A stretch of 64,000 nucleotides of DNA from an uncultured Succiniclasticum sp. (GTDB taxonomy: Bacteria > Bacillota > Negativicutes > Acidaminococcales > Acidaminococcaceae), in the NCBI GenBank assembly GCA_902801365.1, contig CADCHY010000018.1:1-64000 (forward strand), given 5' to 3'. Positions 2,204-50,088 of the stretch are shown one piece after another. The notes under the pieces were generated by a model, which searched no databases, was not told where the DNA came from, and saw only the letters and a program-made list of their open reading frames with translations. Every line of letters begins with the position of its first letter. The first letter of the stretch is position 1. The position numbers and the translations under genes were made by a program.

Positions 2204-2231
2204 TTGACAAATCGGATTGGTTGGTTATAAT
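2204..2231 (+). promoter_or_regulatory. Promoter of the leader peptide / cystine transporter operon
   Basis: TTGACA at 2204-2209 and TATAAT at 2226-2231 with a 16-bp spacer. Transcription is expected to start near 2238. This leaves a leader of about 300 nt containing a hairpin, the 47-codon cysteine-rich ORF and a terminator before the transporter genes. Confidence 0.8.
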
Positions 2232-2243
2232 AAGCATAACAAG

Positions 2244-2283
2244 TTTAAATCATACTAAACAAATATGAATAATATGATTTAAA
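2244..2283 (+). repeat. 11-bp perfect inverted repeat at the transcript 5' end
   Basis: TTTAAATCATA (2244-2254) and TATGATTTAAA (2273-2283) are exact reverse complements separated by 18 nt. The repeat sits just after the predicted start site and ends about 10 nt before the RBS of the leader peptide. It may be a DNA operator, or an RNA hairpin that shields the 5' end or influences leader translation. Confidence 0.6.
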
Positions 2284-2310
2284 AATACGATGAGAAGGAG
2301 GACGACCTGA

Positions 2311-2454
2311 ATGAAAAAATCAGCGGTATTGCGTCGGGCAGAATCTTGTTCTATGCGTACACTGGCTGCTGTCATGTGTATGTGTTGTTGTCCTTGCGCG
2401 CTCAGCATGAATATGTGTAGAACAAGAAATGCCTGTTTATGTCTTCTGACATGA
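2311..2454 (+). CDS. Cysteine-rich leader peptide (47 aa), putative cysteine attenuator
   Basis: A 47-codon ORF with a strong GAGAAGGAGG ribosome binding site ends at TGA 2452-2454. It encodes 9 cysteines and 6 methionines, including the run MCMCCCPC at residues 22-29 and more cysteines at 13, 36, 42 and 44; all but one cysteine codon is TGT. The product is not a recognisable protein. It is followed after 29 nt by an intrinsic terminator and then by an amino-acid ABC transporter. By analogy with his, trp and mycobacterial poly-cysteine leader peptides, ribosome stalling on Cys codons when Cys-tRNA is scarce would prevent termination. CTGTTT at 2433-2438, inside the ORF, can pair with AAACAG at 2484-2489, the 5' arm of the terminator, which offers an antiterminator. 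Confidence 0.75.
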   Translation: MKKSAVLRRAESCSMRTLAAVMCMCCCPCALSMNMCRTRNACLCLLT

Positions 2455-2483
2455 TTGACGATTGCATCATCATACAGATTACG

Positions 2484-2508
2484 AAACAGACTGCGGTCTG
2501 TTTTTTTT
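2484..2508 (+). terminator. Attenuator terminator before the cystine-type transporter
   Basis: AAACAGAC (2484-2491), loop TGCG, GTCTGTTT (2496-2503) and eight T in total. It lies between the cysteine-rich leader ORF and the first transporter gene, so some transcription must read through it. That is the arrangement of a transcription attenuator. Confidence 0.85.
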
Positions 2509-2552
2509 ATAGCAAAAATTAAGGAGTAACGGTTTATAACGAAAGGGGTAGC

Positions 2553-3446
2553 ATGATGAAATATAATTGGAAAAACGTATTGGCGGTTGCAGCTGTTTCT
2601 TTATTGACGGCTGGGCTTCTGGCCGGCTGCGGCGGCGTAAAGAAGGTGGAAAAAACAGATAAGCCGGCGGATGCCGGCGCGAAGAAAGTCGTGAAGGTCG
2701 CGCACAGGGCGGATTATGTACCGTACTGCTTCATCAATAAGGATAACCAGTCGGACGGTTTTGAAGTGGCGGTATTAAAGGAGCTGGCGGCAGCGCTGCC
2801 CCAGTACAAATTTGAATTCATTCCCACATCTGACGATGACCTGCTGATCGGCGTGGAAAGCGGTAAATATGACATCGGAGTCAAAGGCGCCTGGTACACG
2901 AAAGCACGCAAGGAAAAATTTATCTTCCCGAAGCATTATATCGCGGCCAGCGTTATCGGCATCACGTTCCGAAAAGAGGATGAAGGAAAGATCAAAGACC
3001 TGGAAAGCTTTGCAAAGCTGAAAGGAAAGCTGGTTCCGATTGCGCCGCAGAATGCACAGTACGCAGTGGTGCAGCAGTATAACCGGGAACATCCGGATAA
3101 TCAGGTCAAGCTGGTTCCTTCGGAGAACTTTAAAGTGGATGAGGCGTATGGCTGGATACTGGAAGGCCGTTATGACGGGTACTTTAACATTGAACTCAAC
3201 CACATAAACAATGTGGAAAAAGAAACCGGCAAATATTATAAATTGAAAGATAAATTTGCCTATGTACGGCATCAGGCAATTCCCACCTATGCGCTGTTCA
3301 ATAAGAAAGACCAGCAACTCGCCGACGAGTACGACAAAGTATGGGAAAAGCTGCAGAAGAGCGGCAAGCTGCTGGAATTGGAAAACAAGTATTTCGGCTT
3401 TGATATTTTCAAGCTTGTCAAAGGCGACGGCAAAGGAGAAAGGTGA
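2553..3446 (+). CDS. Amino-acid ABC transporter substrate-binding lipoprotein (family 3, probably cystine)
   Basis: Extracytoplasmic receptor of a polar amino-acid importer. The lipobox LLAGC puts the lipidated cysteine at about residue 26, followed by a Lys/Ala-rich linker and a family-3 solute-binding domain (297 residues in total). It heads the operon with two permeases, an URO-D family protein and an ATPase. Cystine or a related sulfur amino acid is inferred from the cysteine-rich leader and the neighbouring cysK and tRNA-Cys, not from a specificity motif. ATGs at 2553 and 2556 are both possible; GAAAGGGG at 2541-2548 is the RBS. Confidence 0.85.
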   Translation: MMKYNWKNVLAVAAVSLLTAGLLAGCGGVKKVEKTDKPADAGAKKVVKVAHRADYVPYCFINKDNQSDGFEVAVLKELAAALPQYKFEFIPTSDDDLLIGVESGKYDIGVKGAWYTKARKEKFIFPKHYIAASVIGITFRKEDEGKIKDLESFAKLKGKLVPIAPQNAQYAVVQQYNREHPDNQVKLVPSENFKVDEAYGWILEGRYDGYFNIELNHINNVEKETGKYYKLKDKFAYVRHQAIPTYALFNKKDQQLADEYDKVWEKLQKSGKLLELENKYFGFDIFKLVKGDGKGER

Positions 3447-3452
3447 TAGAAG

Positions 3453-4166
3453 ATGCGCCCGTTTGAGCCTCAGTTGATTCCGCAGTATTTTGTGGAAGTG
3501 TTCCCGTACCTGAGCGTAACGCTGGGTGTTACGGTTTCCGTAATTATCTTCGGCAGCCTGCTGGGCGGTGTGATCGCCTGGGGAAAAATCAGCGGCGGGC
3601 GAGTGGTTCGGAGCCTGGCTACAGGTTATACCTATATCCTGCGCTGCACTCCGTCCATCATTCTTCTTTTCCTGATCTTTTACGGTCTGCCCAAATTCGT
3701 GCTGGAAGCTTTTGGTTATGACATCAACGGGTTGAGCCGTGCAGTCTTTGTAATCATATCCTTTACGTTGCTATATGCAGCCAGCAGCTCGGAAGTCATG
3801 CGCGCCGCGTACCTGTCTGTGGATCACGGGCAGTATGAAGCGGCGGTAAGTATAGGCCTCTCCTCCTTTACCGCACTGCGGCGGATCGTTCTGCCGCAGG
3901 CTGCGGTAGTGGCGTTACCGAATTTTGGAAACTCGGTGCTGAACCTGATGAAGGAAGGCTCGCTGGCCTATACAATTGGACTGATCGATCTGCTTGGGGA
4001 AGGGAATCTGATCATCTCCCGCCAGTATGGAGGCTCTGCGCTGGAAGTCTACACTGCAGTTGGGCTGATCTATCTGGGACTGGCTTTTCTGATCACAAGG
4101 TCGACGATGCTGTTGGAACAAAAGCTGTTGCCACAGAAAACACGACCGGAAAGGATACAGAAATAA
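3453..4166 (+). CDS. Amino-acid ABC transporter permease (HisM/GlnP type) 1
   Basis: Inner-membrane permease of 237 residues with hydrophobic segments near residues 20-45, 60-80, 95-115 and 190-210. The cytoplasmic EAA loop reads EAAVSIGLSSFTALRRIVLPQA (about residues 129-150, cited here only as position) and contacts the ATPase. It starts 6 bp after the binding-protein stop and ends one base before the second permease, so the two are translationally coupled and probably form a heterodimer. Confidence 0.88.
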   Translation: MRPFEPQLIPQYFVEVFPYLSVTLGVTVSVIIFGSLLGGVIAWGKISGGRVVRSLATGYTYILRCTPSIILLFLIFYGLPKFVLEAFGYDINGLSRAVFVIISFTLLYAASSSEVMRAAYLSVDHGQYEAAVSIGLSSFTALRRIVLPQAAVVALPNFGNSVLNLMKEGSLAYTIGLIDLLGEGNLIISRQYGGSALEVYTAVGLIYLGLAFLITRSTMLLEQKLLPQKTRPERIQK

Positions 4167-4167
4167 A

Positions 4168-4884
4168 ATGGAATTAGATTATGCGTTTATGGTCCGGACC
4201 TTTGGGATTTTGCTGCAGGCCATACCGGTCACCCTCAAGCTTACCGCGGTGACGCTGGTGCTGGCAACGCCCTTTGCGTTCCTGCTGGCGCTGGCAAGGA
4301 TTTACACCGTGCCGTACGTGGCAAAATTCGCTTCCGTTTACGTTTCGGTGATGCGTGGCATCCCCATGGTTTTACAGATCCTGCTGGTGTACAGCCTTCT
4401 GCCCAGTCTGCTGAACTATCTGTTTAAACGGGCGGGTATTGCGTATAACATTTTTGACCTGGATACAATCTGGTATGCCTACATCATCTTTACTCTCGGT
4501 GAAATCGCGGTTTTGTCAGAGGTTTTCCGGTCTGCGCTCGGCAGTGTCGGCGACGGGCAGATAGAGGCGGGGCTGTCGGTAGGCATGAACCGCCGGACGA
4601 TTTACCGGCGTATCCTGATTCCGCAGGCGCTGGTGACGGCCATGCCGAGCCTGTGTAATGTTACGGTCACGCTGCTCAAAAATACCTCGCTGGCTTTTAT
4701 GATGGCGGTGCAGGATATAACTGCGACAGGCAAAATTGCCGCATCGTACGGATATAACTACGTAGAAGCCTATCTGGATGTGTTCCTGGTTTACATCATT
4801 GTGTGCTCGCTGGTGCAGATTGCCTTCCGTATTTCGGAGAAGCATCTCGGACGGTTCCGCCACGCTTCCCAGACCAGCGGCTGA
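4168..4884 (+). CDS. Amino-acid ABC transporter permease (HisM/GlnP type) 2
   Basis: Second membrane subunit, 238 residues, same family as its upstream neighbour. It shows the family LRCTP-equivalent MRGIPMVLQ segment and an EAGLSVGMNRR coupling loop followed by RILIPQAL. Multiple hydrophobic stretches span the length. It probably pairs with the first permease. The ATP-binding subunit is not adjacent but lies at 5978, after an inserted URO-D family gene. Confidence 0.88.
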   Translation: MELDYAFMVRTFGILLQAIPVTLKLTAVTLVLATPFAFLLALARIYTVPYVAKFASVYVSVMRGIPMVLQILLVYSLLPSLLNYLFKRAGIAYNIFDLDTIWYAYIIFTLGEIAVLSEVFRSALGSVGDGQIEAGLSVGMNRRTIYRRILIPQALVTAMPSLCNVTVTLLKNTSLAFMMAVQDITATGKIAASYGYNYVEAYLDVFLVYIIVCSLVQIAFRISEKHLGRFRHASQTSG

Positions 4885-4919: not shown

Positions 4920-5927
4920 ATGACTCAGAATAAACGTGAATTGGTAGAAGCAGCTTTACATAATAAACCGGTTGACCGGGTGCCTGTGGGCTTCTGGTTC
5001 CATTTTCTGGAAGACCAGCGTAATACGGATGCCGTCAGCGATCCGGCTCTGGAAGAACAGAATCTGGCGGGGCACAGGAACTTTATCGAATCCTGGCATC
5101 CGGATTTTGTGAAAATCATGACAGACGGATTTTTCCAATATCCGAATCCGGCTGTGACCAGGCCGATTCAATCGATTCAGGAAGCGGCGGATATCCGGCC
5201 TCTTGGCAGGGATTCTGCCTGGTTTACCCATCAGGTTGCCTTTGCAAAGAAGCTGAGCAGCGCTTACGGAAAAGAAATCAAACTGTTTTACAATCTGTTC
5301 GCACCGGCCCGTACTCTTAACTTTGTGCAGGAAAAAGTGGGAGGTCAGTCGGATTTGGCTGTGTTTCTGCGCGAAGATCCAGAAACGCTGAAAAAAGTGC
5401 TGGACGTGATTGCGGAAGACTACGCCGCGCTGGCAGAGGCACTGATCCGCGACGGCGGCGTGGACGGGATCTATCTTTCGGTCAACAACATAAATAAGGA
5501 CACCGTGGCGGCAGCTGATTATCAGGCTTATATTGCACCTAGCGAAATTGCCGTCCTGGCGGGAGCAAACCGGGCAAATCCGGAAAATATCCTGCATATC
5601 TGCGGGTATGAAGGCTTTTTGAATCATCTGGAGTGGTACAAAGAGTATCCGTTCCTGGCGGTAAACTGGGCTGCGCATCTGGAGGGCGTGCCCCTGGCAG
5701 AAGGCAAAAAGCTGTTTGACGGTCGGGCCGTTATCGGCGGCTTCGGGCAGACGGAGAAAGATGTGATTTACGTGGGTACCAAAGCAGAAATAGAGCAGGA
5801 AACAGAACGTCTGCTGCAGGAAGCCGGGACTGTCGGCGTAATTTTAGGCGCAGACTGCACGGTACCCAGGGATATCGATGTACAGCGGTTCAACTGGGTG
5901 CGGGATAAAGCGGCGGCTGTAAAATAA
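4920..5927 (+). CDS. URO-D superfamily protein with MtaA-type zinc/thiol site
   Basis: A 335-residue TIM-barrel protein of the uroporphyrinogen decarboxylase superfamily. It is unlikely to be HemE. It carries His226-x-Cys228 (ILHICGY) and Cys313 (GADCTVP), the HxC...C zinc ligands of MtaA/CmuA methylcobamide:thiol methyltransferases. Such enzymes bind a thiol on zinc and move a methyl group to or from it. It sits inside the transporter operon between permease and ATPase (RBS AAAGGAT), suggesting that it processes a methylated or free thiol linked to the imported compound. No corrinoid protein is encoded nearby. Substrate unknown. Confidence 0.75.
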   Translation: MTQNKRELVEAALHNKPVDRVPVGFWFHFLEDQRNTDAVSDPALEEQNLAGHRNFIESWHPDFVKIMTDGFFQYPNPAVTRPIQSIQEAADIRPLGRDSAWFTHQVAFAKKLSSAYGKEIKLFYNLFAPARTLNFVQEKVGGQSDLAVFLREDPETLKKVLDVIAEDYAALAEALIRDGGVDGIYLSVNNINKDTVAAADYQAYIAPSEIAVLAGANRANPENILHICGYEGFLNHLEWYKEYPFLAVNWAAHLEGVPLAEGKKLFDGRAVIGGFGQTEKDVIYVGTKAEIEQETERLLQEAGTVGVILGADCTVPRDIDVQRFNWVRDKAAAVK

Positions 5928-5977: not shown

Positions 5978-6727
5978 ATGTTAAAGGTTACCGGGATTCA
6001 CAAAAAATTTAATAAGCATGAAGTGCTGAAAGGAATAGACCTCACTGTTAACAAAGGGAACGTGGTTGTCATTTTAGGTCCCAGCGGCAGCGGAAAGACC
6101 ACGCTGCTGCGCTGCATCAATTTTCTGGAAAAAGCGGACAGCGGGCATCTTGACTTTGATGAGATATCGCTGGACTATGATACCGTTACCGGAAAGCAGA
6201 TCCATAACGTGCGGAAAAAGACGGCTTTCGTATTTCAGAATTACAATCTGTTCAACAATAAGACGGTGCTGGAAAATGTGGCTGAAGGTCTGATTTACGG
6301 GCATGGCGTGGAGAAGGCAAAAGCGATAGGGATTGCCAGACAGGCAATTGATAAGGTGGGGCTGTCAGACCATTACGACCATTATCCTTCGCAGCTTTCA
6401 GGCGGACAGCAGCAGCGCGTCGGCATTGCCCGTGCCATTGCTATAGAACCGGAGGTAATCCTGTTCGATGAACCTACTTCCGCGCTGGACCCGGAACTGA
6501 TCGGTGAAGTGCTGACGATCATCCGGCAGCTGGCAAAGGAAGGGAAGACCATGGTAATCGTCACCCACGAGATGCAGTTCGCCAGGGAAATTGCTACCCA
6601 TGTCATTTTTATGGAGGACGGCATCATTGTGGAAGAAGGTGATCCGGAAAAGGTGTTCTCCAAACCGGAAAAAGAACGGACGCGCCAGTTCCTGAGCCGT
6701 GTGCTGTCGCCGGAATACATGATTTGA
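5978..6727 (+). CDS. Amino-acid ABC transporter ATP-binding protein
   Basis: Cytoplasmic ATPase of 249 residues. The Walker A GPSGSGKTT is at about residues 33-41, the Q-loop at FQNYNLF, the signature LSGGQQQRVGIARA, Walker B VILFDEPTSALDPE and the H-loop at VTHEM. All catalytic residues are present. It matches the GlnQ/TcyC-type subunits for polar amino acids. It is the last gene of the operon begun at 2553 and is followed by a convergent terminator. Confidence 0.92.
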   Translation: MLKVTGIHKKFNKHEVLKGIDLTVNKGNVVVILGPSGSGKTTLLRCINFLEKADSGHLDFDEISLDYDTVTGKQIHNVRKKTAFVFQNYNLFNNKTVLENVAEGLIYGHGVEKAKAIGIARQAIDKVGLSDHYDHYPSQLSGGQQQRVGIARAIAIEPEVILFDEPTSALDPELIGEVLTIIRQLAKEGKTMVIVTHEMQFAREIATHVIFMEDGIIVEEGDPEKVFSKPEKERTRQFLSRVLSPEYMI

Positions 6728-7950: not shown

Positions 7951-8024
<74 letters not shown>

Positions 8025-29618: not shown

Positions 29619-29805
29619 TTGCATTTTTAATTTGTTTGTGCTATTATCTTCGCGGAATAAGAATGGTATGGAAGGTATCCCCAGGGGAACTTTACCAGTG
29701 CGCCGTGCTTATTCAGGACAATGTCACACATCGCTTGGATCTTTAAGACCGGGACGAGACGCTAAAGGGCTTCGTATGCGCATCTTACCGGATGCGCATT
29801 TTTTA
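29619..29805 (+). promoter_or_regulatory. Promoter and attenuator-type leader of the pan operon
   Basis: TTGCAT at 29619-29624 and TATTAT at 29642-29647 (17-bp spacer) start a leader of about 240 nt. GAATAAG (29655-29661) pairs with CTTATTC (29708-29714) around an inner stem TGGTA/TACCA and a TCCC/GGGA hairpin. An intrinsic terminator follows: ATGCGCATC (29776-29784) with GATGCGCAT (29791-29799) and T residues. A structured domain followed by a terminator 90 nt before the first gene indicates a riboswitch or attenuator. The known pan motif is a candidate, but I cannot confirm its consensus by eye. Confidence 0.65.
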
Positions 29806-49864: not shown

Positions 49865-50054
49865 GTGGGAGAACGGCGCAAGCCTGCCGAAGGAGCTAAA
49901 CTCTCAGGCGCTGTAAAAAGCGGAACCATAAGGGGACACGACTCTGGAGAGTCCCGGCACGGGAACGCGGTTCAGCCGTTTTTCCGGTACGGGCGCCGAA
50001 GGTGCACGGAAGCTTACGCGGCTTTCTTATCTCTCAGGCAAAAGGACAGAGAAA
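49865..50054 (+). ncRNA. Tandem glycine riboswitch
   Basis: Promoter TTGCAT (49798-49803) and TATAAT (49820-49825). Two aptamers follow. The first starts GGGAGAACGGC near 49867 and contains GCCGAAGGAGC and ACTCTCAGGCG. The second has GCGCCGAAGGTGCACGG and TATCTCTCAGGCAAAAGGAC. These are the conserved glycine-aptamer elements. Terminator AACTTATCTCC/GGAGGTAAGTT at 50089-50123 is the expression platform. It should switch on glycine export or catabolism when glycine is abundant. Confidence 0.93.
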
Positions 50055-50088
50055 GATTTCAGGATATTTCCTGCTATTTTGATTTGCA

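Follow-up and report, generated by a model that had tools for sequence, protein, structure and literature searches.

A poly-cysteine leader peptide ahead of a cystine-type ABC transporter operon in Negativicutes: a candidate cysteine attenuator

Firmicutes normally sense the charging of tRNAs with T-boxes, and attenuation through leader peptides is unusual among them. Leader-peptide attenuators that respond to His are known from the Bacillus cereus group, Peptostreptococcaceae and Erysipelotrichales (PMC9413887, PMC2965389), and His attenuators have been predicted in several Firmicutes groups, none of them in Negativicutes (PMC9413887). Swaps of T-boxes and leaders between groups are already known (PMC2965389). 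Short ORFs with Cys codons have been described ahead of cysS in Rhodobacterales (uORFC-8-2; PMC8632094) and, as Cys runs, ahead of cys genes in mycobacteria and other Actinobacteria (PMC1262725; also Canestrari 2020, cited by PMC13236596), and cyst(e)ine uptake is controlled by Cys T-boxes at Clostridium perfringens cysP1/cysP2 (PMC2940859).

Here we describe a leader in a rumen Succiniclasticum-group genome that is very probably a ribosome-mediated transcription attenuator reading the level of Cys-tRNA(Cys). It lies in the window, by which we mean the whole stretch of 64,000 nucleotides that was analysed (contig CADCHY010000018.1, positions 1 to 64,000). The basis for the attenuator is its set of parts, their conservation, their independent recurrence, a Cys T-box at the orthologous operon, and predicted folds; the transcription start, the position of the ribosome, the cyst(e)ine substrate and the read-through expected on cysteine starvation are inferred.

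The leader unit and its transporter operon

The initial annotation had described a promoter, a 47-codon ORF with nine Cys codons and a strong ribosome-binding site, a terminator 29 nt past the stop codon, and a transporter operon. All of these were found (Table 1), and the complementarity that it had noted between CTGTTT and AAACAG is present in the sequence. The promoter is the top-scoring of nine sites within 4 kb, and the same TTGACA-16-TATAAT arrangement is also present in two related genomes, G003 and G010. Transcription would start near 2238, which would give a 5' leader of about 70 nt. The terminator begins 29 nt past the leader stop codon (2452-2454) and before the first gene of the operon. 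Rfam gave no match over 2204-2553, its three matches in the window all lying elsewhere, and the T-box model (RF00230) had no match in the window. Rfam matches in the window include a glycine riboswitch (49934-50059) and a pan motif (29669-29761). Among 1639 short ORFs with a Shine-Dalgarno sequence in 833 kb of scanned loci, which are a non-random sample, seven distinct Cys-rich ones were followed by a terminator, and all seven lie upstream of a cystine-type ABC transporter (about 370 nt upstream in G055). The leader unit is more than chance would produce.

Table 1. Features of the window and poly-Cys leaders of other Negativicutes genomes
Feature	Position	Strand	Basis or remarks
Sigma-70-type promoter, TTGACA-16-TATAAT	2204-2231	+	12 of 12 consensus matches
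Conserved site CATACTAAACAAATATGAAT, candidate CymR/Rrf2-like operator	2251-2270	+	just downstream of the putative transcription start
Shine-Dalgarno AAGGAGG of leader ORF	2295-2301	+	sequence
Predicted leader peptide ORF MKKSAVLRRAESCSMRTLAAVMCMCCCPCALSMNMCRTRNACLCLLT	2311-2454	+	47 codons, 9 Cys, 6 Met
Putative regulatory codon run MCMCCCPC	2374-2397	+	5 Cys, 1 Pro and 2 Met in 8 codons; identical in G003 and G010
Putative antiterminator strand CUGUUU	2433-2438	+	pairs with 2484-2489; inward helices UGU/ACG, UCUG/CAGA, AUGAU/AUCAU
Intrinsic terminator GAAACAGAC-UGCG-GUCUGUUUU and U tract	2483-2506	+	-10.9 kcal/mol
Substrate-binding protein, family 3 (YtmK/FliY-like)	2553-3446	+	nearest solved structure by sequence YtmK 2o1m (B. 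subtilis)
ABC permease	3453-4166	+	best NCBIfam model cystine ABC permease PRK15100, below cut-off
Another ABC permease of that family	4168-4884	+	NCBIfam
URO-D superfamily (MtaA/CmuA-like) protein, within the transporter operon	4920-5927	+	Pfam/NCBIfam
ABC ATPase	5978-6727	+	best NCBIfam model L-cystine TcyN, below cut-off
G023 leader, MLCCCCCCNKTFIDKNKIAISAPDFFY (MLCCCCCC...)			window's family; before amino-acid ABC permease
G322 leader, MRNTWNTITICCCCTCMVCCCHVSFACAPVDRIGTIL (CCCCTCMVCCC...)			different order; before amino-acid ABC permease
G325 leader, MSFEAYAICCCCPMACCCCHSYFACASESKSHGRLCKEIHRTV (CCCCPMACCCC...)			different order; before amino-acid ABC permease
G053 leader, VNCCCCEASCCDACFACN			window's family, genus g16; before amino-acid ABC permease
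G055 leader, relative of G053			genus g16; upstream of amino-acid ABC permease
G054 leader, relative of G053			genus g16; upstream of SDF-family symporter

For both the permeases and the ATPase, cystine models score highest yet fall under their curated cut-offs, and the substrate of the operon is probably cyst(e)ine. Upstream, the neighbours of the leader are cysK and the gene of a homocysteine S-methyltransferase. A gene encoding a protein of 968 aa separates cysK from the leader in G003, where the block formed by leader and operon is undisturbed; the leader travels together with the transporter. Several other features were observed in this neighbourhood. The gene for the 968-aa protein is inserted adjacent to the region corresponding to 1930-2003, which resembles a degenerate tRNA (end GTGTTCAAATCCAGGCGCCGCCTCC) and receives no call from ARAGORN. 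The sole tRNA gene of the window, tRNA-Cys(GCA) at 7951-8024, lies 1.2 kb beyond the operon. A URO-D/MtaA-CmuA-like gene also immediately precedes the homologous substrate-binding protein gene in Propionispira, and the URO-D-like protein of the window's operon may perhaps transfer methyl groups from an imported S-methyl compound.

Conservation, recurrence and a Cys T-box

The window's leader is known from three near-identical copies only. A search of the family with the leader DNA matched three of 59 genomes (G000, G003 and G010), and a protein search with the leader peptide found no convincing relative outside these three. Between the window and G003, the transcribed leader carries 3 substitutions in 275 nt, compared with 11 in 104 nt upstream of the promoter (p 7e-5) and 61 in 645 fourfold sites of the operon (p 3e-7). 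Divergence so far below that of the flank and the fourfold sites indicates, from these alignments, that the leader nucleotides are constrained in addition to the peptide, with the reservation that recombination can also reduce divergence locally. The only change in the ORF between the window and G003 replaces Met with Ile; all Cys codons are identical, and every Cys is retained in both G003 and G010. The initial annotation had suggested that the Met codons might add sensitivity to Met, which is not borne out, given the Ile in G003 and the lack of comparable Met codons in the other leaders.

Additional evidence came from leaders elsewhere in the class. Since the peptides are alike in their Cys codons only, pattern scans were needed to find them, and these covered up to 380 Negativicutes genomes; a class-wide search with a permease was also made. 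The permease search returned 38 orthologues across the class, with poly-Cys leaders at G023, G053, G055, G322 and G325. The further units found consist of a promoter, a Cys-run ORF, a terminator and a transporter; the ORF of every leader found has a strong intrinsic terminator behind it. Cys runs are common to the peptides of the window, G023, G322/G325 and G053-G055, which share little else. In the three species of genus g16, the peptides (G053, G055 and G054) read VNCCCCEASCCDAC(F/L)(A/V)CN, and eight of eight Cys codons are kept with synonymous TGT/TGC changes, while the start codon varies (TTG/GTG/TTG). The region after the ORF has diverged among these species; two blocks are retained within it, ACCATAG and, in the terminator, CGGGCTATGG...GCCCG. 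These two can pair with each other (CCAUAG/CUAUGG), and the outer terminator pairs are altered on both sides. The SDF family, to which the symporter behind the G054 leader belongs, includes the cystine symporter TcyP. A short Cys-rich ORF with a terminator, for which the initial annotation had proposed a search in related genomes, does recur before cystine-type transporters, and the Cys codons whose conservation it had asked about are kept both in the close relatives of the window and in genus g16. These leaders are evidence for cyst(e)ine as the cargo of the ABC and SDF transporters behind them. A broader proposal is that poly-Cys leaders recur in Negativicutes as a control of cyst(e)ine uptake and were probably invented more than once, that they serve at least three transporter types, can be exchanged for a Cys T-box at one operon within one genus, and are sometimes stacked on a sulfur-repressor operator; we regard this as evenly balanced.

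The scans also returned material of other kinds. Homologues of the substrate-binding protein gene in Propionispira and Rummeliibacillus have no leader immediately upstream. Most in-frame Cys-run matches were discarded because they lay inside larger proteins or had no terminator; those rejected include MCCCC starts of gltX-like genes (G050/G052) and overlapping frames (G242/G250/G251). The two gltX-like proteins (G050:C7:38521 and G052:C27:5262) start with MCCCCNN and are encoded right upstream of a cysS-like gene, and this Cys-rich start may itself be Cys-sensitive. Orthologues of the G325 permease elsewhere in Negativicutes have another short conserved leader, TGCTGATCAGA-n-ACTGAAGGCC, that runs into a terminator (GGCCAAAGTTTC..GAAACTTTGGCC). 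It was seen in L199, L201, L203, L204, L206, L208, L212 and L214 (also L195 and L196), about 20-60 nt past the -10 box, with opposite-strand occurrences in L216 and L221; it has no Rfam match and is a candidate for a new short regulatory RNA.

No other single line of evidence supports a response of the window's leader to Cys as strongly as a comparison with two congeneric genomes, G013 and G005. The orthologous operon in these genomes (substrate-binding proteins 91-92% identical) has a T-box in the leader's place, and the leader ORF is absent upstream of it in both. The T-boxes score 95.8 bits in G013 and 90.5 bits in G005, the latter slightly below the curated score of 93, and in both the specifier codon is UGC (Cys). 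To place the specifier, T-boxes from the window's genome served as calibration (valS GUA, pheS UUC, ileS AUC, metA AUG, serA UCC), with the genes identified from the translations downstream. A Cys T-box at the orthologous operon, as an independent sensor, indicates that the operon responds to the charging of tRNA-Cys. Two sensors for the same tRNA occupy an equal position relative to the promoter of orthologous operons in a single genus, and the pair opens to direct test both the costs and benefits of either mechanism and the question of which one replaced the other.

Proposed mechanism and predicted folds

According to the attenuation model, RNA polymerase would start near 2238 and the 47-codon peptide would be translated behind it. 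If Cys-tRNA is ample, the ribosome would reach the stop codon, covering or passing 2433-2438, and the terminator would be left free to end transcription ahead of the transporter. If Cys-tRNA is scarce, the ribosome would stall in the Cys run, the stretch 2433-2489 would fold as an antiterminator that captures the terminator 5' arm, and the cystine-type ABC operon would be transcribed. With no translation, the leader would fold on itself and terminate.

Folding predictions are largely consistent with this model. The whole leader folds more stably than 200 shuffles (z -3.6), and the 6-bp pairing of 2433-2438 with 2484-2489 is the basal helix of a longer antiterminator whose pairing is imperfect. 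Stalled states were folded with the RNA free beyond the ribosome and ended before the terminator 3' arm exists. The antiterminator is the minimum free energy (MFE) structure for ribosome A-sites at 2377-2416 and is absent for A-sites at 2434-2452, so the last two Cys codons cannot be regulatory and the run at codons 23-29 can be. In the untranslated leader, the terminator arm is free in the MFE structure and the terminator forms. It is likely, on these models, that antiterminator and terminator are mutually exclusive and that the position of the ribosome sets the choice. When all RNA downstream of a stalled ribosome is free to fold, the terminator wins by about 3 kcal/mol, and the model therefore depends on folding during transcription. 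The observed antiterminator pairing was reached by 14 of 300 shuffles for the window and by 36, 128, 56 and 169 of 300 for four other leaders. Between the stalled state and the stop state, the terminator arm loses pairing in G023, G322 and G325, but not in G053-G055; the antiterminator strand of genus g16 begins 14-23 nt after the first base of the stop codon, where a terminating ribosome would scarcely mask it. While the three-state logic emerged as expected from the leader folding that the initial annotation had called for, the antiterminator itself is modest when set against shuffled sequences.

Alternative readings and relation to known systems

The ORF might instead be a normal gene for a small protein rich in Cys, either secreted or metal-binding, that has a promoter and terminator to itself, with the transporter transcribed from a separate promoter. 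The good Shine-Dalgarno sequence and the complete transcription unit would suit such a gene. However, the peptide has no Pfam or NCBIfam match, the leader peptides share little more than Cys runs, an amino-acid transporter lies behind each case found, a Cys T-box occupies the slot in sister species, and the promoter scan listed no promoter-like site between the terminator and 2553, all of which make it improbable. Control of initiation by a sulfur repressor at 2251-2270, with the leader ORF secondary or a relic, is a little less probable again. The exact motif occurs in four of 380 Negativicutes genomes (G000, G003, G010 and G023), each time at a poly-Cys leader, and in both the window and G023 CATACTAAACNAATATGAAT directly follows the -10 box. 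Copies with two mismatches occur at promoters of cysK (G116), metQ-like (G015), amidohydrolase (G238, G239) and cystathionine lyase-like (G269) genes, and the genome encodes two Rrf2 proteins over cut-off. The site is tentatively an operator for a sulfur regulator, perhaps CymR-like. Dominance of such a repressor is harder to reconcile with the leaders of G322, G325 and G053-G055, which lack the site at up to two mismatches, with an ORF that is almost invariant between species, or with a number of weak matches only modestly above that of a reversed-pattern control.

Least probable of all is that Cys-sensitive stalling affects translation of the transporter or stability of its RNA rather than the terminator, in the manner of mycobacterial poly-Cys uORFs. 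Those uORFs lack obvious terminators (PMC1262725) and are attenuators, according to the work cited in PMC13236596. Against a similar role here stand the strong intrinsic terminator behind the ORF in all leaders found and the retention of the putative antiterminator strand in genus g16. The cysteine attenuator proposed by the initial annotation is the reading we prefer, supported by the kept Cys codons, the recurrence of unrelated leaders and the Cys T-box in sister operons.

The window's leader shares with the trp, his and leu attenuators an ORF with a run of cognate codons, an intrinsic terminator and downstream genes that, by similarity, serve the cognate amino acid, and it has a putative competing antiterminator; it differs in using Cys rather than His, Trp or Leu, in its occurrence in Negativicutes and in its proposed control of uptake. 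Its short ORF, like uORFC-8-2 of Rhodobacterales, carries Cys codons in tandem and precedes an intrinsic terminator, but uORFC-8-2 has two Cys codons and precedes a cysteinyl-tRNA synthetase gene in alphaproteobacteria, whereas runs of 3-6 Cys precede transporters here. The mycobacterial poly-Cys uORFs are leaderless, have their run close to the stop codon and lack a conserved terminator, in contrast to the Shine-Dalgarno-led ORF and terminator of the window. Cys T-boxes, including those in G013 and G005, sense tRNA-Cys charging and control cyst(e)ine uptake through premature termination; a T-box binds the tRNA directly, whereas the window, in place of a T-box, would use a translated peptide. 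In the literature searched, which takes in a minority of subscription papers, no Cys leader was reported from Negativicutes or ahead of cystine transporters. The design follows classical ribosome-mediated attenuation, and its Cys version in Negativicutes and the swap with a T-box appear to be new. The two different sensors, for one tRNA at one operon in one genus, make an unusually clear comparative case.
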